Source: an uncultured Bacteroidales bacterium (GTDB taxonomy: Bacteria; Bacteroidota; Bacteroidia; Bacteroidales; Bacteroidaceae). Taken from it: a DNA stretch of 53,561 nucleotides. The stretch lies in assembly GCA_902760965.1 (NCBI GenBank), contig CACWIN010000007.1, positions 1-53,561 on the forward strand, read 5' to 3'. A program made the position numbers and the translations under genes. Positions 4,928 to 42,690 of this stretch are shown here, piece after piece (the stretch's first letter is position 1; every line of letters starts with the position of its first letter). The notes below the pieces were generated by a model. That model saw only the letters and a list, made by a program, of their open reading frames with translations, made no database searches and had not been told where the DNA came from.

Positions 4928-4992
4928 CCATTGGGGACGGTTCCGTTTGGCTCATTTGTTAAAAACGAGCCAAACGGAACCGTCCCCAATGG
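4928..4992. repeat. Perfect 26-bp palindrome, REP-like (GGGGACGGTTCC)
   Basis: Arms 4928-4953 and 4967-4992 are exact reverse complements, separated by a 13-base loop. Each arm holds the GGGGACGGTTCC core shared with the repeats at 1-72, 19704-19749 and 24436-24482. It starts three bases after the stop codon of the DUF4380 gene and could act as a transcript end, though no T-run follows. It also separates that gene from the attenuator of the aromatic operon. Confidence 0.85.
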
Positions 4993-5046: not shown

Positions 5047-5054
5047 TAACTTTG
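5047..5054 (+). promoter_or_regulatory. -7 box of the aromatic operon promoter
   Basis: TAACTTTG is a full match to the Bacteroidetes -7 consensus TAnnTTTG. The -33 box is weak (TTTATG near 5020-5025). Transcription would begin about 5058-5062, only a few bases before the leader-peptide ATG at 5063, so the leader mRNA would be almost leaderless. Confidence 0.65.
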
Positions 5055-5062
5055 CACCCAGA

Positions 5063-5122
5063 ATGAAAACAGTAAACGCATACTTCTATTACTTTTGGTT
5101 TACCAGACAATATGCCGGGTAA
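5063..5122 (+). CDS. Leader peptide of an aromatic amino acid attenuator
   Basis: A 19-codon reading frame encodes MKTVNAYFYYFWFTRQYAG. Residues 7-13 (Y F Y Y F W F) are seven aromatic residues in a row covering Tyr, Phe and Trp, with another Tyr at 17. It lies between a TAnnTTTG promoter and an intrinsic terminator, just upstream of aroF. This is the classic layout of ribosome-mediated attenuation: scarcity of any charged aromatic tRNA stalls the ribosome in the run. Bases 5115-5120 (CCGGGT) at the end of the frame can pair with 5158-5163 (GCCCGG), the 5' arm of the terminator, so a stalled ribosome would leave them free to form an antiterminator, while one at the stop codon would cover them. 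The regulatory logic is inferred from sequence. Confidence 0.88.
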   Translation: MKTVNAYFYYFWFTRQYAG

Positions 5123-5155
5123 TTTGTTGTATGCCTACAAATAAGAAATAACAGA

Positions 5156-5188
5156 GAGCCCGGATCAATGATTCGGGCTCCTTTTTTT
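5156..5188 (+). terminator. Attenuator terminator before aroF
   Basis: A 10-bp stem (5156-5165 with 5171-5180, one G-T pair) closes on a 5-base loop CAATG and is followed by seven T (5182-5188). It lies 26 bases upstream of the aroF start, after the aromatic leader peptide, so it should stop transcription when aromatic amino acids are plentiful. Confidence 0.88.
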
Positions 5189-5214: not shown

Positions 5215-6225
5215 ATGATAGCAGTACTAAAAGCAGGAGTCTCCGAGACTCAAAAAAAGAACCTGATAAACTGGATCAAAGGCCAGGGAGTTGACGTACA
5301 CATATCCGAAGGTCAGTACCAGACCGTAATAGGCCTTATAGGCGATACCAGCCGAATAGACCCCGACCTGCTGAGCGGCCTTGACATAATAGAGAGCGTA
5401 ACCCGAATAAGCGAGCCCTTTAAGTGCGCCAACCGCCGTTTCCACCCCGCCGACACAATAGTAGAGATAGGCCAGGGAGAAAACAAAGTAAAGATAGGCG
5501 GCGGCAACTTTGCCATGATAGCCGGCCCCTGCTCAGTAGAGTCCGAAGAGCAGATAACCCAGATTGCCAAGGCCGTAAAGGCATCGGGCGCCACACTGCT
5601 CAGAGGAGGAGCGTTCAAGCCCCGTACCAGCCCGTATGATTTTCAGGGAATGGGAGCCGATGGCCTTGAGCTGCTGCGCAAAGCCCGCCAGGCAACCGGC
5701 CTGCCCATAGTAACTGAGATAATGAGCGAAAAGCACCTGGACCTGTTTGAGGACGTTGACCTGATTCAGGTAGGAGCCCGCAACATGCAGAACTTTGAAC
5801 TGCTAAAGACACTTGGCCGCACCCGCAAGCCAATCCTGCTTAAGCGCGGTCTGTCAAGCACAATAAAGGAATGGCTCATGAGCGCCGAGTACATAATGGC
5901 AGGAGGAAACGAGAACATAATCCTGTGCGAGCGCGGCATTCGCAGCTACGACACATACACCCGCAACGTGCTTGACCTTTCGGCCATACCGGTAGTAAAG
6001 GAGCTGTCACACCTGCCCATAATTGTGGATCCCAGCCACGCCACAGGCAAGTCACGCCTGGTTCCGTCAATGAGTCTGGCCGCAGTTGCAGCCGGAGCCG
6101 ACGGTCTGATCATAGAGGTGCACAACGACCCCACCCACGCCCTGTGCGACGGAGCCCAGTCACTCACCCCCGCCCAGTTTGACCAAGTAGCCAACAAAGT
6201 CAAAGCCCTGAAACAAATAGTCTAA
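5215..6225 (+). CDS. aroF: 3-deoxy-7-phosphoheptulonate (DAHP) synthase, type I-beta with N-terminal regulatory domain
   Basis: 336 residues. It condenses PEP and erythrose-4-phosphate, the entry step of the shikimate pathway. Residues 1-70 form a ferredoxin-like/ACT-type domain as in the Thermotoga and Geobacillus enzymes, where it mediates feedback inhibition. The barrel shows AGPCSVES, LRGGAFKPRTSPYDFQG, PIVTE, QVGARNMQNF, LLKRG and DPSHATG, all diagnostic of the I-beta class. It is the first structural gene after the attenuator, so transcriptional and allosteric control probably act together. The stop is followed by heptanucleotide repeats. Confidence 0.95.
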   Translation: MIAVLKAGVSETQKKNLINWIKGQGVDVHISEGQYQTVIGLIGDTSRIDPDLLSGLDIIESVTRISEPFKCANRRFHPADTIVEIGQGENKVKIGGGNFAMIAGPCSVESEEQITQIAKAVKASGATLLRGGAFKPRTSPYDFQGMGADGLELLRKARQATGLPIVTEIMSEKHLDLFEDVDLIQVGARNMQNFELLKTLGRTRKPILLKRGLSSTIKEWLMSAEYIMAGGNENIILCERGIRSYDTYTRNVLDLSAIPVVKELSHLPIIVDPSHATGKSRLVPSMSLAAVAAGADGLIIEVHNDPTHALCDGAQSLTPAQFDQVANKVKALKQIV

Positions 6226-6308: not shown

Positions 6309-7145
6309 ATGAACTCAGTATCAGTAATAGGCCTAGGCCTGATAGGAGGCTCCCTAGCCAAGACATACAAGGAGGCCGGCTGGACCGTTTACGGTTTTGA
6401 CTTGAACGAGTCCGTAAGCCGTTTTGCCGAACTTGAAGGCACTCTTGATGCCGTCCTTGACAGCAAGAACATAAAAAAGTGTGACCTTATTCACATAGCC
6501 GTCACCCCCGATGCCGCCTGCAACTGGCTTGAACAGCACGGCCCCGAGATTGCAAAAAGTACTGTTGTGATTGATGACTGCGGAACCAAGCGCAAGGTAG
6601 TTGAATGCGGAATGAAAGTTGCCGCAAAATACGGTTTCACTTACGCCGGAGGCCATCCCATGGCAGGTACGCATCTGTCAGGCTACAAGAACTCACGCGC
6701 CACAATGTTCCAGAACGCATCAATGATAATAGTACCCCCGGTACACGATGACATACAGCTTCTGGACCGTATTAAGAGACTGCTGGAACCCATGCAGCTT
6801 AAGCGTGTGGTATTTACCACAGCCCAGGACCACGACCGCATGATTGCCTTTACGTCACAGTTGGCGCATGTGGTATCAAACGCCTACATTAAGAGCCCGT
6901 CGGCCCAACAGCACAAGGGCTACAGCGCAGGCAGTTTCCGCGACCTGACCCGTGTGGCATGGCTTAACGAGAACATGTGGACAGAGTTGTTCCTTGAAAA
7001 CAAGGACAACCTGCTGCAAGAGATACATACAATCATTGACAACCTTACCCAATACGCCAACGCCATGGAGGCCAACGACGCAAAGAGACTCTGCTCGCTG
7101 CTGCGTGACGGCCGTATTGCCAAGGAGTTGTCCGAAAAGAACTGA
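6309..7145 (+). CDS. tyrA: Prephenate dehydrogenase
   Basis: 278 residues. It oxidises prephenate to 4-hydroxyphenylpyruvate with NAD(P) for tyrosine synthesis. The N-terminus has the Rossmann motif GLGLIGGS (residues 8-15) followed by a beta-strand ending in FDLNES. GGHPMAGT (about residues 117-124) and the helical dimerisation domain with FTSQLAHV complete the family. There is no chorismate mutase or ACT domain, so it is monofunctional; chorismate mutase is supplied by pheA in the same operon. It is spaced two bases from aroB. Confidence 0.93.
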   Translation: MNSVSVIGLGLIGGSLAKTYKEAGWTVYGFDLNESVSRFAELEGTLDAVLDSKNIKKCDLIHIAVTPDAACNWLEQHGPEIAKSTVVIDDCGTKRKVVECGMKVAAKYGFTYAGGHPMAGTHLSGYKNSRATMFQNASMIIVPPVHDDIQLLDRIKRLLEPMQLKRVVFTTAQDHDRMIAFTSQLAHVVSNAYIKSPSAQQHKGYSAGSFRDLTRVAWLNENMWTELFLENKDNLLQEIHTIIDNLTQYANAMEANDAKRLCSLLRDGRIAKELSEKN

Positions 7146-7147
7146 AT

Positions 7148-8203
7148 ATGGAGAATACGGCAAAAATAACAGTCAAGGCATCGGGCACGTATGACATACT
7201 GCTTGCCAAAGGCGGTCTGCAACATATTGGACAGGCTGCAGCAGAGCGCTTTAAGCCCTGCAAGATTGCCATTCTGAGCGATGACAAGGTATTCACGTTG
7301 TACGGCAAGACTGTTATGGACTCACTCCAAAAGGCTGGATTCACCACCGTGAGCCATGTAATTGAGAACGGCGAGCAGTCCAAGACACTTGACAACGTTA
7401 CCGAATTCATAAACACCATGGTGGGAGCCCAGGTTACACGTACCGATATGGTCCTGGCTCTTGGAGGCGGTGTGGTTGGCGATATGGCAGGTTTTGCATC
7501 GGCCATATACCTGCGCGGCATACCGTATATCCAGGTACCCACCACCCTGCTGGCAGCGGTCGATTCATCGGTTGGCGGCAAGACTGCCGTTGACATTAGC
7601 GCCGGCAAGAACCTGGTTGGAGCGTTTCACCAGCCGTCAATGGTATATCTGGATACCGATACCCTTTCAACGCTTGATCCGGACGTGATGCGTGACGGAT
7701 TTGCCGAGGTAATAAAATACGGAATAATACTGGACCGCAATCTGGCCGACACCGTTGCCAGGCCCGGCACTTTTGATTTGGAACAGGTCATTGCCCGCTG
7801 CATAAGCATAAAGCGCGATGTGGTGGAGCAGGACGAATTTGACAAGGGTCTGCGCGGACTGCTCAATTTTGGACATACGTTCGGACACGCAATAGAAAAG
7901 CTCAGCTCGTTTACGATAAGCCACGGCAGTGCAGTAGCCCGCGGCATGGTGATTGCAGCCAAGGTAGCTGCAGCATACGGTTATACCAATTACACCAACG
8001 CCATTGCCAAGGTTCTGGAAAGCTACGGTTTTGACCTTTCATGCCCCTACTCCGCCAGTGATATGTACAACGTAATCCTGTCCGACAAAAAGCGCAGCGG
8101 GGCCGATATAACACTGGTACTGCCTGAGTCAATAGGCAAATGCGTATTGCAAAAGATGCCTGCCATGCAGGTTCTTGAACTAATGAAAAAAGTGAGGTTA
8201 TGA
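7148..8203 (+). CDS. aroB: 3-dehydroquinate synthase
   Basis: 351 residues. It converts DAHP to 3-dehydroquinate using NAD and a divalent metal. Key motifs are GGGVVGDMAGFAS, RGIPYIQVPTTLLAAVDSSV and GGKTAVD for nucleotide and substrate binding, and GHTFGHAIE with its metal-binding histidines. Length is normal. Its last four bases overlap the aroA start (ATGA), indicating translational coupling. Confidence 0.95.
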   Translation: MENTAKITVKASGTYDILLAKGGLQHIGQAAAERFKPCKIAILSDDKVFTLYGKTVMDSLQKAGFTTVSHVIENGEQSKTLDNVTEFINTMVGAQVTRTDMVLALGGGVVGDMAGFASAIYLRGIPYIQVPTTLLAAVDSSVGGKTAVDISAGKNLVGAFHQPSMVYLDTDTLSTLDPDVMRDGFAEVIKYGIILDRNLADTVARPGTFDLEQVIARCISIKRDVVEQDEFDKGLRGLLNFGHTFGHAIEKLSSFTISHGSAVARGMVIAAKVAAAYGYTNYTNAIAKVLESYGFDLSCPYSASDMYNVILSDKKRSGADITLVLPESIGKCVLQKMPAMQVLELMKKVRL

Positions 8204-9465
8204 CACTTGAGGTATTCGGGACACTATCGGGAACAGTACAGGTACCGCCGTCAAAATCGGTGGCACACCGCATGCTCATTTGCGCCGCACTGTCGGGTGA
8301 GCCCTGCTCAATTGTGTGCCAGAGCGTTAACCGCGACATGGAGGCAACCGTAAACTGCCTGAATGCTCTTGGCGCGAAAATAACTTACAACAACGGATGC
8401 TTTAACGTAATCCCCGTTGGCAAATGCACAAAAGGCGCCACACTTGACTGCGCCGAAAGCGGCTCCACTTTAAGGTTCCTGCTACCAGTTGCAGCAGCAC
8501 TCGGTGCCGATGCCGTATTTACAGGCCAGGGCCGCCTGCCGGAACGCCCCCTGTCCCCGCTTTACGAGGAGATGACAGCCCACGGCGTACGCATGTCACA
8601 GAACGGCCGCATGCCCCTTACATGTAACGGATCACTCCCTGGCGGCAACTACACCATTGACGGAGGCGTATCGTCACAGTTCATATCGGGTCTGCTTATG
8701 GCACTGCCTCTAACAGGACAGGACAGCACCATTACCGTTACCGGCAAAAAAGAGAGCCAATCATACATTGAGCTTACCCTTAACGCACTAAAACTGTTTG
8801 GAATAAAAGTAGAAAAGACTGATAGCGGATATCACATTCCCGGATCCCAAAAGTTCACCGCACCAAGTGCAAGGATTGCCGTTGAATCGGACTGGTCAGG
8901 TGCGGCATTCTGGATTGTGGCAGGTGTTGCCGGGCGCAAGAGCATAACCTGCACAGGTCTTGACTACGACCACTCAGCCCAGGGGGACCGCCGCATAATT
9001 GACGTACTCCGCAGCATGGGTGCCGATATAACCATCGGCCCCGGCAGCGTTACGGCACGTCCGTCACAGCTTACCGGATGCATAATTGACTGCGCCGATA
9101 TCCCCGACCTGGTACCTGTAATGGCGGTTGCCGCATCGGCTGCCCAGGGTACGACCCTCTTTAACAATATAAACAGACTGCGCATTAAGGAGAGTGACCG
9201 TGTGGAAGCCATCCTGAGCATGCTGTCGGGCGCCGGCATAAGCGCCTACGCAACCCAGGACACGCTTACCGTTACCGGCGGAATTGCACGCAACACAAAA
9301 TACGACCCGTGCAACGATCACCGCATGGCTATGGCGGCAGCAGTCTTAGCGATAGTAAAAAATATAAACATAACAATAAGCAGCACTGAGTGTGTTGCCA
9401 AATCCTACCCATCATTCTTTGACGATTTCAAAGCATTAGGAGGAGACATTATAATTGAGAATTAA
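8200..9465 (+). CDS. aroA: 3-phosphoshikimate 1-carboxyvinyltransferase (EPSP synthase)
   Basis: 421 residues. It transfers the enolpyruvyl group of PEP to shikimate-3-phosphate. Visible motifs are PPSKSVAHR near the N-terminus, ESGSTLRFLLP, the GGVSSQFISGLLMALP substrate loop, RIKESDR and CNDHRMAMA. Start overlaps aroB by four bases. The shikimate steps before it (aroE, aroK) and after it (aroC) are not in this window. Confidence 0.95.
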   Translation: MTLEVFGTLSGTVQVPPSKSVAHRMLICAALSGEPCSIVCQSVNRDMEATVNCLNALGAKITYNNGCFNVIPVGKCTKGATLDCAESGSTLRFLLPVAAALGADAVFTGQGRLPERPLSPLYEEMTAHGVRMSQNGRMPLTCNGSLPGGNYTIDGGVSSQFISGLLMALPLTGQDSTITVTGKKESQSYIELTLNALKLFGIKVEKTDSGYHIPGSQKFTAPSARIAVESDWSGAAFWIVAGVAGRKSITCTGLDYDHSAQGDRRIIDVLRSMGADITIGPGSVTARPSQLTGCIIDCADIPDLVPVMAVAASAAQGTTLFNNINRLRIKESDRVEAILSMLSGAGISAYATQDTLTVTGGIARNTKYDPCNDHRMAMAAAVLAIVKNINITISSTECVAKSYPSFFDDFKALGGDIIIEN

Positions 9466-9524: not shown

Positions 9525-10667
9525 ATGGACCTTACAGACTACAGAGAACAGATCAACAACATTGACGATCAGATTTGCAAACTGTTCACCCAGAGAATGC
9601 AGGTGGTGAACCACATTGGTGAATACAAACGTGACCATGACGTGCCGGTAAACAGCGGTTCACGCGAGCGTGAGGTGCTGGCACGCATCTCAAAACAACT
9701 GCCCGAGGACCTGGAGGATTTTGGGCGTGTGCTATACCGCTCCATGTTTGACATAAGCAAGGCATACGAGGCCATGTACAAGGAAAAGGATTCCCCGCTG
9801 TACAAAGCCATATCGAGCCTTATCAATGCCGATCCCGCTCCGTTCCCCAAACGCGCCACGGTGGCATGCCAGGGACGTGAGGGCGCCTACTCGCAGATTG
9901 CAGCCGAAAAGCTGTTCGAGGTACCCGAGATAATGTTCAACAACACCTTTGAGGGTGTAATCCGCATGGTAACCGGAGGCCTTTGCGAGTACGGAATCCT
10001 GCCCATTGAGAACTCAACCGCAGGTTCGGTAAACGAGATTTATGACCTGCTCATTAGATATAACGTGCACATTGTACGCAGCACCCGTGTCAGGGTTGAC
10101 CATCAGCTGCTGGCAGCCAAGGGTGCAAAGTTCCAGGACATAAAGACCATCTACTCCCACCCTCAGGCCATTAACCAGTGCTCACATTTCCTGAGCGCGC
10201 TCAAGGATGTTGAGATAATTCCTTTTGACAACACCGCCATGGCTGCCCAGAAGGTTTCAAAGGATCCCAACCGGACATCGGCCTCAATATCTTCAAAGAG
10301 CTGCATAGACCTTTACAACATGGAGGTTCTGGCACAGGATATACAGAATTTTGACAGCAACCACACCCGTTTTATCTGCATTGCCAAGAACGCCCGCATA
10401 TATCCGGGAGCCAATCGCACAAGTATAATGATGGTCATGAGCCACAAGCCCGGAACGCTGTTCTCGGTGCTCAGCAAGTTCAATGCCACAGGTGCCAACC
10501 TGGTCAAGCTGGAGAGCCGTCCCATACCGGGCCGTGACTTTGAGTTCATGTTCTATTTTGACATTGAGTTGTCCATATATGACAAGAAATTTGCATCGCT
10601 CATAAGCGAGCTTGACCACTGCGGCGAGCAGTTCAAGTACTTTGGCACGTATCAGGAAATAGTGTAA
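9525..10667 (+). CDS. pheA: Bifunctional chorismate mutase / prephenate dehydratase
   Basis: 380 residues. Residues about 1-90 are an AroQ-type chorismate mutase helix bundle (YREQINNIDDQICKLFTQRM, then GEYKRDH). About 105-285 is prephenate dehydratase (VACQGREGAYSQIAAEKLF, ILPIENSTAGSVNEIYDLL, NHTRF). The C-terminus is an ACT domain with HKPGTLFSVLSKFN and VKLESRPIPG, matching the ESRP motif that binds phenylalanine, so Phe feedback is expected. It yields phenylpyruvate for Phe and supplies prephenate to TyrA. Confidence 0.95.
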   Translation: MDLTDYREQINNIDDQICKLFTQRMQVVNHIGEYKRDHDVPVNSGSREREVLARISKQLPEDLEDFGRVLYRSMFDISKAYEAMYKEKDSPLYKAISSLINADPAPFPKRATVACQGREGAYSQIAAEKLFEVPEIMFNNTFEGVIRMVTGGLCEYGILPIENSTAGSVNEIYDLLIRYNVHIVRSTRVRVDHQLLAAKGAKFQDIKTIYSHPQAINQCSHFLSALKDVEIIPFDNTAMAAQKVSKDPNRTSASISSKSCIDLYNMEVLAQDIQNFDSNHTRFICIAKNARIYPGANRTSIMMVMSHKPGTLFSVLSKFNATGANLVKLESRPIPGRDFEFMFYFDIELSIYDKKFASLISELDHCGEQFKYFGTYQEIV

Positions 10668-10676
10668 TTTAGCGGC

Positions 10677-11099
10677 ATGAAAAAGATTCTTGTAATAAAC
10701 GGGCCAAACCTTAACCTGCTTGGATTAAGGGAGCCTGCTATATACGGCAACCGCGATTTTAATGCTCTTATTGAATTTATCAAGGAGAGTGCCCGCAGCC
10801 TTGGCCTGCAGGTGGAGTGTTTCCAGTCAAACCACGAGGGTGCTATTGTGGACAAGATCCAGCAGGCATACGGGGTGTTTGACGGTATTGTAATAAACCC
10901 CGCCGCATACACCCACACCAGCGTGGCCATCCTGGACGCCCTTAAGGCCGTAGCCATTCCCACGGTCGAGGTTCACATAAGCGACGTTTCGGAACGCGAG
11001 GAGTTCCGCCGCCACTCTTTTGTATCGCTTTATGCAGCCAAGACAATCATGGGCAAAGGGTTTGACGGGTACCGCGAGGCCCTGAGCTTTTTTCTCTAA
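10677..11099 (+). CDS. aroQ: 3-dehydroquinate dehydratase, type II
   Basis: 140 residues, the usual size for the type II enzyme, which dehydrates 3-dehydroquinate to 3-dehydroshikimate. Signature segments are INGPNLNLLGLREPAIYG (with the catalytic Tyr), QSNHEGAIVDKI, INPAAYTHTSVAI and VEVHISDVSEREEFR. It is the last gene of the aromatic operon, nine bases after pheA, and is followed by a strong terminator. Confidence 0.95.
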   Translation: MKKILVINGPNLNLLGLREPAIYGNRDFNALIEFIKESARSLGLQVECFQSNHEGAIVDKIQQAYGVFDGIVINPAAYTHTSVAILDALKAVAIPTVEVHISDVSEREEFRRHSFVSLYAAKTIMGKGFDGYREALSFFL

Positions 11100-11121: not shown

Positions 11122-11154
11122 TATCCCGCTTGTCAGTAAGCGGGATATTTTTTT
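11122..11154 (+). terminator. Terminator of the aromatic operon
   Basis: A perfect 10-bp stem (11122-11131 with 11138-11147, arms TATCCCGCTT/AAGCGGGATA) has a 6-base loop GTCAGT and a run of seven T. It lies 22 bases after the aroQ stop codon. Confidence 0.92.
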
Positions 11155-42557: not shown

Positions 42558-42646
42558 CTTGAATGAAAGGGGGTGCCCAACAAGGGCTGAGATTATACCC
42601 TATGAACCTGATCCGGACAGTGCCGGCGGAGGGATTGGAATTCAAG
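42558..42646 (+). ncRNA. TPP riboswitch (THI element)
   Basis: Conserved blocks GGGGGTGCCC, AAGGGCTGAGATTATACCC, TGAACCTGATCCGGACAGTGCCGGCGGAGGGA are present in order. P1 is CTTGAAT (42558-42564) with ATTCAAG (42640-42646). Downstream, ACCCTTTTTCATT (42656-42668) can pair with AATGAAAGGGGGT (42562-42574), an alternative helix that would disrupt P1/P2; no intrinsic terminator is seen. It precedes a TonB receptor and PnuT, so thiamine pyrophosphate should repress thiamine uptake. Confidence 0.95.
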
Positions 42647-42690
42647 ATTTGGTGTACCCTTTTTCATTTGGATTAACTATTTAAATCTAT

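Follow-up and report, generated by a model that had tools for sequence, protein, structure and literature searches.

A putative ribosome-mediated attenuator with mixed aromatic codons precedes a six-gene aromatic amino acid operon in an uncultured Bacteroidales bacterium

The aromatic biosynthesis operon of an uncultured Bacteroidales bacterium is preceded by a leader that is very probably a ribosome-mediated transcription attenuator, which would sense charged tRNA-Phe and tRNA-Tyr, and possibly the Trp tRNA. The aromatic genes would probably be switched on under shortage of these amino acids. We consider the attenuator reading strongly supported, because the leader is conserved in 22 loci, similar leaders turn up across the order and the class, and the predicted stems carry paired changes. 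Its anatomy, conservation, paired changes and spacing were all taken from the sequence. The window, that is the whole stretch of DNA that was analyzed (53,561 nucleotides), contains the following features, all on the + strand.

5047 to 5054, +, promoter element TAACTTTG, read from the sequence
5063 to 5122, +, leader peptide ORF of 19 codons, MKTVNAYFYYFWFTRQYAG followed by a stop; read from the sequence, conserved at all 22 loci read in the genus
5078 to 5083, +, 5' strand of the protector (1:2) hairpin, GCAUAC; fold prediction, pairs with 5129-5134
5081 to 5101, +, seven aromatic regulatory codons, YFYYFWF; read from the sequence, F/Y exchange in relatives
5115 to 5130, +, antiterminator 5' strand (5115-5120 and 5123-5130); fold prediction, paired changes, spacing
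5129 to 5134, +, 3' strand of the protector hairpin, GUAUGC; fold prediction, pairs with 5078-5083
5148 to 5163, +, antiterminator 3' strand (5148-5155 and 5158-5163); fold prediction
5156 to 5188, +, intrinsic terminator, stem 5156-5180 and T7 5182-5188; -18.6 kcal/mol, z = -5.1
5215 to 6225, +, aroF, DAHP synthase with ferredoxin-like N-terminal domain (Pfam PF00793, PF18152)
6309 to 7145, +, tyrA, prephenate dehydrogenase (PF02153)
7148 to 8203, +, aroB, 3-dehydroquinate (DHQ) synthase (PF01761)
8200 to 9465, +, aroA, EPSP synthase (PF00275)
9525 to 10667, +, pheA, chorismate mutase-prephenate dehydratase (PF01817, PF00800)
10677 to 11099, +, aroQ, type II 3-dehydroquinase (PF01220)
11122 to 11147, +, terminator-like stem at the operon end, after aroQ (terminator scan)

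The original prediction described a TAnnTTTG promoter, a 19-codon frame and seven consecutive aromatic codons, and all three were found. The promoter element at 5047-5054 is of the Bacteroidota -7 type, the leader ORF runs from the ATG at 5063 to the TAA stop at 5120-5122, and codons for Y F Y Y F W F occupy 5081-5101. No other aromatic run of at least five residues exists in the six frames of the whole window, and none of seven appeared in 60 first-order random windows. Short ORFs are common, and this one might be a chance ORF preceding an ordinary terminator; such a reading is contradicted by the absence of the run from random windows, by conservation and by paired changes, and we give it next to no credence.

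The whole leader RNA folded with z = -4.4 relative to shuffles. Three mutually exclusive hairpins can be drawn in it, a predicted protector, antiterminator and terminator. The protector of the window had z = -1.5 and -2.1 in two computations, and a protector overlapping the regulatory codons reached z ≤ -2 in 50 of 106 leaders. It is predicted to sequester also the antiterminator 5' strand (5115-5130), while the antiterminator 3' strand overlaps the 5' arm of the terminator. The pairing of 5115-5120 with 5158-5163, which had been proposed, exists and is extended by 5123-5130 with 5148-5155 (-17.6 kcal/mol, z = -5.4). This antiterminator arises in the fold once the upstream part is omitted, and it excludes the terminator (-18.6 kcal/mol). 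The terminator, announced as a 10-bp stem with seven T, proved to have 11 pairs (5156-5166 with 5170-5180), a 3-nt loop and T7 at 5182-5188, and it sits between the leader ORF and aroF (ATG at 5215). A simple terminator scan was not enriched overall (8 sites versus 7.7 in shuffles); what sets the leader terminator apart is its individual fold (z = -5.1), not the scan totals.

We infer transcription start, ribosome stalling and read-through as follows. Transcription would begin a few bases 5' of the leader AUG. If the aromatic tRNAs are charged, the ribosome would reach the stop at 5120 and cover 5115-5120, and the terminator (5156-5188) would then form ahead of aroF. Stalled at a codon within 5081-5101, the ribosome would block the protector hairpin (5078-5083/5129-5134) and leave 5115 onward free, since 5115 is 16 nt past the start of the last aromatic codon. 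The free 5115-5130 would capture the terminator 5' arm, and RNA polymerase would enter the six genes. With no ribosome on the leader, the protector hairpin would hold 5115-5120 and termination would be the default.

The nearly leaderless ATG had been called unusual. The short gap is indeed kept in the genus, where 8-9 nt separate the promoter TTTG from the leader ATG in 21 of 22 loci, but it is absent from the 78 other leaders (median gap 25 nt in the 68 with TTTG within 60 nt). Therefore the near-leaderless start appears dispensable for the mechanism, and we ruled it out as a part of it. One species (L099) carries a hairpin-forming insert between promoter and leader, with a gap of 39 nt. Upstream of the leader promoter of the window, at 4928-4992, lies a near-perfect palindrome of 30 bp. 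It has 86 matches in the genome with both strands counted (approximately 40 places) and resembles a REP repeat; its core GGGGACGGTTC is also found at window positions 11, 35, 19725 and 24453.

The six genes were named by Pfam in the predicted order aroF-tyrA-aroB-aroA-pheA-aroQ, and the proposed control over the common pathway and over both the Phe and Tyr branches follows from this operon content. AroF of this type occurs in 22 of the 37 genomes of the genus, counting that of the window (24 copies). Conservation of the peptide and hairpins upstream of aroF had been suggested as a check, and the leader was present at every one of the 22 loci read in the genus, each from a different genome. The peptide, region-2 sequence, GCCGGG, the terminator and its position were conserved in 22/22. 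The stop codon shifts among these leaders (TRQYAG, TRQ, TRR, TRP), while GCCGGG and TTTACCAGAC, which lies 3' of the aromatic run and is invariant across the 22 loci, stay constant. The second aroF copy of genome G003 (L309) likewise has a leader, MKAINAYYFYFWFTRQFAG (read by eye). In the second copy of G013 (L308) an apparent insertion sequence cuts the leader region and just the end of the terminator is left upstream of aroF; a contig end is near. All six fetched genus operons (three with W in the leader and three without) had the complete gene set, with pheA ahead of aroA in two. One leader of the genus (L101) had a weak antiterminator (z = -0.3). No such leader was found on three named Bacteroidaceae contigs with aroF 73-75% identical (L002, L003, L039).

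Related leaders were observed far outside the genus. A model built on the genus leaders (R1) gave matches in 96 of 301 family genomes (E ≤ 0.1). Nineteen R1 loci were read: 16 were real leaders, and three (L124, L128, L132) were rejected as false matches with a terminator and no leader; L212 was rejected likewise as terminator only. Fifteen of the 16 real leaders lie ahead of pheA. The other, L126, is a typical F/Y leader and its downstream gene is unlike an aromatic enzyme. A second model (R2) gave matches in 145 of 344 order genomes (E ≤ 0.01) and 152 of 345 phylum genomes (E ≤ 0.1), partial and terminator-only matches included; many of the weak phylum matches span the terminator alone and were left out of the fetched loci. 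An aromatic-run ORF was present in 84 of the 85 order and phylum loci read, 15 of the 84 belonging to different orders within the class and two (L185, L188) lying outside the class. The comparison across Bacteroidales, also suggested originally, went in favor of the attenuator reading: aromatic-run peptides recur over the order and the class, with paired changes in the stems. No antiterminator was found at L188; two consecutive DAHP synthase genes (L298) lie downstream of its aromatic leader.

Among 112 loci from the R2 and R3 fetches, the first gene downstream was pheA in 76, paaK in 14, an aminotransferase in 5, a symporter in 5, DAHP synthase-mutase in 4, aroF in 2, tyrA in 1 and CM-pheA in 1; no downstream gene was recognised in four, three of them ≤160 nt from a contig end. 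An aromatic-biosynthesis or associated aminotransferase gene was directly 3' of the leader in 89 of the 112. One locus from another family (L210) has an F/Y leader without W followed by aroF-tyrA-aroB-aroA-pheA. Two attenuators stand in series at nine fetched loci; at L192-L200 the doubled aromatic attenuators have pheA downstream. Left out of the structure counts were L173, L203, L200_2 (wrong frame), L212 (terminator only), L148, L284 and L286 (identical with loci L141 and L139), and L214, where the script missed the leader and a GTG-started one is visible by eye.

In relatives F and Y interchange inside the run while the run stays aromatic, and sensing of Phe and Tyr is therefore well supported at the sequence level. 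The main runs were 75% W before trp (5 leaders), 96% Y before paaK (14 leaders), 100% Y before the symporter (5 leaders), and 57% F and 42% Y in the remaining 94 leaders, mostly before pheA. Codon content thus tracks the regulated genes, with WWW before trp and poly-Tyr before paaK or the symporter. The peptide could instead be a nascent-chain arrest peptide that senses a free ligand and not codon-level starvation, and the residues after the run are indeed similar (FTRQ, FSNE, FTKK, YRT). However, the composition of the run differs by lineage yet remains aromatic, and codon sensing accounts for runs that are poly-Tyr, mixed F/Y or WWW, so that we regard arrest as very unlikely.

Paired changes were analyzed on 22 aligned leaders (A2) and 16 pheA leaders (A3). 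On A2, 92% of antiterminator cells pair, versus 29-53% when slid, and both-sided changes occur in 12 cells versus 3.7 in shuffles, with cells counting sequences and not events. The paired changes represent few events. They are G-C to C-G, G-C to A-U, and A-U to U-G or G-C, and the main one divides the genus from all other leaders. On A3, 92% of antiterminator cells were paired, with both-sided changes present, and 99% of terminator cells were paired, with 20 both-sided cells versus 6.4 in shuffles. Two of five covariation measures for the antiterminator were not above shuffles on either alignment: the pairs changed on both sides (132/500 on A2, 43/500 on A3) and the pair types (349/500 on A2, 296/500 on A3). 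For the set of paaK leaders covariation was not clearly above shuffles.

A stalled ribosome has a footprint such that, when stopped at the last aromatic codon, it would end about where region 2 (the antiterminator 5' strand) begins. Counted from the first base of the final aromatic codon, region 2 starts 14.7 +/- 2.2 nt downstream (151 of 152 leaders; 12-17 nt in 127), while its distance to the stop codon was -8.1 +/- 12.7 nt (range -39 to +10). In 107 non-redundant leaders the spacing was 14.6 +/- 2.4 nt versus 34.0 +/- 17.9 in shuffles by the same measure, a constancy that is partly conditioned, since the models used to find the loci include region 2. The spacing thus appears anchored on the last aromatic codon and not on the stop, as a stalled ribosome would require. 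The antiterminator reached z ≤ -2 in 138 of 152 leaders; seven of the 14 above this value are poly-Tyr. The mean energy of a leader's own antiterminator was -17.6 kcal/mol versus -12.4 with swapped partners, and the own partner beat the mean swap in 97/107 leaders but was within the best tenth of swaps in just 56/107.

A metabolite riboswitch, a T-box or an RNA-binding protein could also control the terminator, the ORF being incidental. The leader is strongly structured with exclusive folds, and TTTACCAGAC is invariant in the 22 genus loci, as such an element would allow. Against it, the window leader and the leaders of 13 and 14 sampled relatives were below every Rfam threshold (best sub-threshold scores MicC, 27.3 of 90 bits, and Thr_leader, 21.4 of 55), the aromatic runs survive F/Y exchange and follow the regulated genes, and it is the last aromatic codon that anchors the spacing. 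We consider this explanation highly unlikely, and ribosome-mediated attenuation remains our reading of the leader. Elsewhere in the window, at 42559-42651, a TPP riboswitch was identified (Rfam, 64.8 bits).

The original prediction held that one leader senses all three aromatic amino acids. Its Phe and Tyr part stands by the F/Y exchange; its Trp part is not established, and we consider sensing through the W codon possible but somewhat doubtful. In 18 of 22 genus aroF leaders W is fixed in place, and it is absent from the other four. A ribosome stalled at W, 19 nt distant, would leave 5115 free. TrpA was counted by hand in 13/18 genomes with the W form, 1/4 without W and 3/15 genus genomes without the operon, in draft genomes mostly 76-90% complete. 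On the other hand, W lies within the run in only 7 of 107 non-redundant leaders (the 18 genus leaders counted as one) and in one of the 57 aromatic leaders that precede aroF relatives in other phyla. A search for a link between W and the genes of the operon revealed none, as the three fetched W-less leaders precede the same six genes. The GG of the W codon is predicted to pair within the protector hairpin, and changing TGG to any F or Y codon weakens that hairpin by 4.4 kcal/mol (from -13.8 to -9.4). The codon may therefore be retained for pairing; sensing and pairing roles are both possible.

Moreover, five relatives carry a separate WWW leader upstream of their trp operon. Such leaders, of the MTMHLSFWWWQNSGYIKS type, preceded 5/5 genus trp operons with the upstream region covered, a count outside which the window genome falls, its own trp contig ending short of the leader region. 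These loci (L257, L259, L260, L262, L263) carry a trpB-E-G-D-C-F-A operon with WWW leader and terminator, the genes named by eye except trpA. The scheme used gave no convincing antiterminator in the trp leaders (z from -1.2 to 0.8), and the claim for them is therefore limited to WWW codons and a terminator.

Poly-Tyr leaders (e.g. MNVRFASAYYYYYYRT) were found directly before a PaaK-like ligase (L244-L254, L256, L277, L278; L267:446-7487) and, at L279-L283, directly ahead of a symporter. Downstream of the ligase lie genes for an ACT-pair protein and for a sodium:solute symporter, joined in some genomes by iorA, iorB and an aminotransferase. The full order paaK-ACT-pair-symporter-iorA-iorB-aminotransferase was present in 3/8 fetched regions, other genes lying past the symporter in 5/8. 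Gene names were taken from L267, whose ligase (461 of 646 bits against the PaaK model) and IorA (523 of 651 bits against the IOR-alpha model) score below the curated cut-offs and whose IorB scores above its own. A route to tyrosine from arylacetates exists in rumen bacteria, and the paaK/ior operon would presumably make tyrosine in this way; our literature search gave no direct source for the route. Shikimate auxotrophy of the genomes with paaK leaders was ruled out (DHQ synthase in 34/37 genus genomes).

Searching named genomes for aroF relatives left 80 loci, most of them labelled as Clostridia or relatives and three as Bacteroidaceae; R2 gave 36 matches on them (E ≤ 0.1), mostly immediately 5' of aroF. 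Upstream sequence of 140 nt or more was present for 79, and 57 of these (L004-L081, mostly Clostridia) had an ATG ORF with at least six aromatic residues in ten, versus 0.7% in shuffles. A terminator of ≤ -10 kcal/mol accompanied 54 of the 57 (7.4% in shuffles), and one of ≤ -15 kcal/mol 48 (0.4% in shuffles). Examples are MRNVLFTASYYFYFYFYWDEVRAIDAAKSAI in Sporobacter termitidis and a leader beginning MRNFIFAAAYYFYYFFFTNKEES in Emergencia sp. In 54 terminator-bearing aromatic leaders of other phyla the antiterminator scheme did not reproduce the Bacteroidota geometry (spacing 27.0 +/- 9.3 nt; mean z -0.7, z ≤ -2 in 10). Therefore the aromatic leader and terminator before aroF are common to Clostridia and the Bacteroidota geometry is not.

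Taken together, we tentatively propose, as a joint reading that may well fail in one of its parts, that aromatic attenuators unannotated in Rfam are widespread in Bacteroidota and that the codons of the run determine which amino acid is sensed. The pheA and aro operons would be served by mixed Phe/Tyr leaders; the lone symporter, and paaK-ACT-symporter operons, some of which add iorA, iorB and an aminotransferase, would respond to Tyr only; in the genus of the window, Trp would be sensed as well, for the whole common pathway; some lineages would use two switches in series; and the leader and terminator before aroF would be shared with Clostridia by transfer or convergence. This would provide a complete, testable model of the control of aromatic amino acid synthesis in many Bacteroidota. 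If codon content predicts specificity, leaders could assign transporter and ligase functions by the encoded amino acid, most strikingly for the tyrosine-controlled paaK/ior operon, which the poly-Tyr leader would mark as a tyrosine-making route (arylacetate salvage).

In proteobacteria, Trp and Phe leaders control trp and pheA by ribosome stalling. The window leader resembles the enterobacterial pheL/pheA and trpL attenuators in its short peptide with cognate codons before aromatic genes and in its predicted protector, antiterminator and terminator hairpins. It differs from them in mixing Phe and Tyr codons (pheL is not known to have Tyr codons), in belonging to a different phylum and in governing the common pathway with two branches; against the Rfam Phe_leader (RF01859) it scored 18.2 bits, the gathering threshold being 55. 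Single leaders with codons for several related amino acids are familiar from the ilv peptides, which are alike in this respect but concern branched-chain and not aromatic amino acids. A comparative study of 2004 reportedly mentioned attenuators in Bacteroidetes.

According to the available text of PMC2965389, leader-peptide systems were at that time known in Proteobacteria and Actinobacteria only, and that study added a His leader in bacilli. For Bacteroides thetaiotaomicron, the accessible part of PMC7366714 describes leader-like small ORFs, and it gives 3.7% of 5' UTRs as shorter than 10 nt. The aroF, paaK, symporter and tandem forms had no mention in the portions of the literature searched. 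In the available part of PMC9723704, strong clues for leader-peptide attenuation ahead of amino acid operons are presented for Flavobacterium psychrophilum, together with a structured 5' element of Flavobacteriaceae pheA that is conserved in other genera and has no Rfam hit. That element is likewise a structured region before pheA; the same part of the source gives no peptide, codon set, antiterminator or spread beyond Flavobacteriaceae for it. As ribosome attenuation was already known and a pheA 5' element already reported, the window leader is a variant and not a new kind of regulator.
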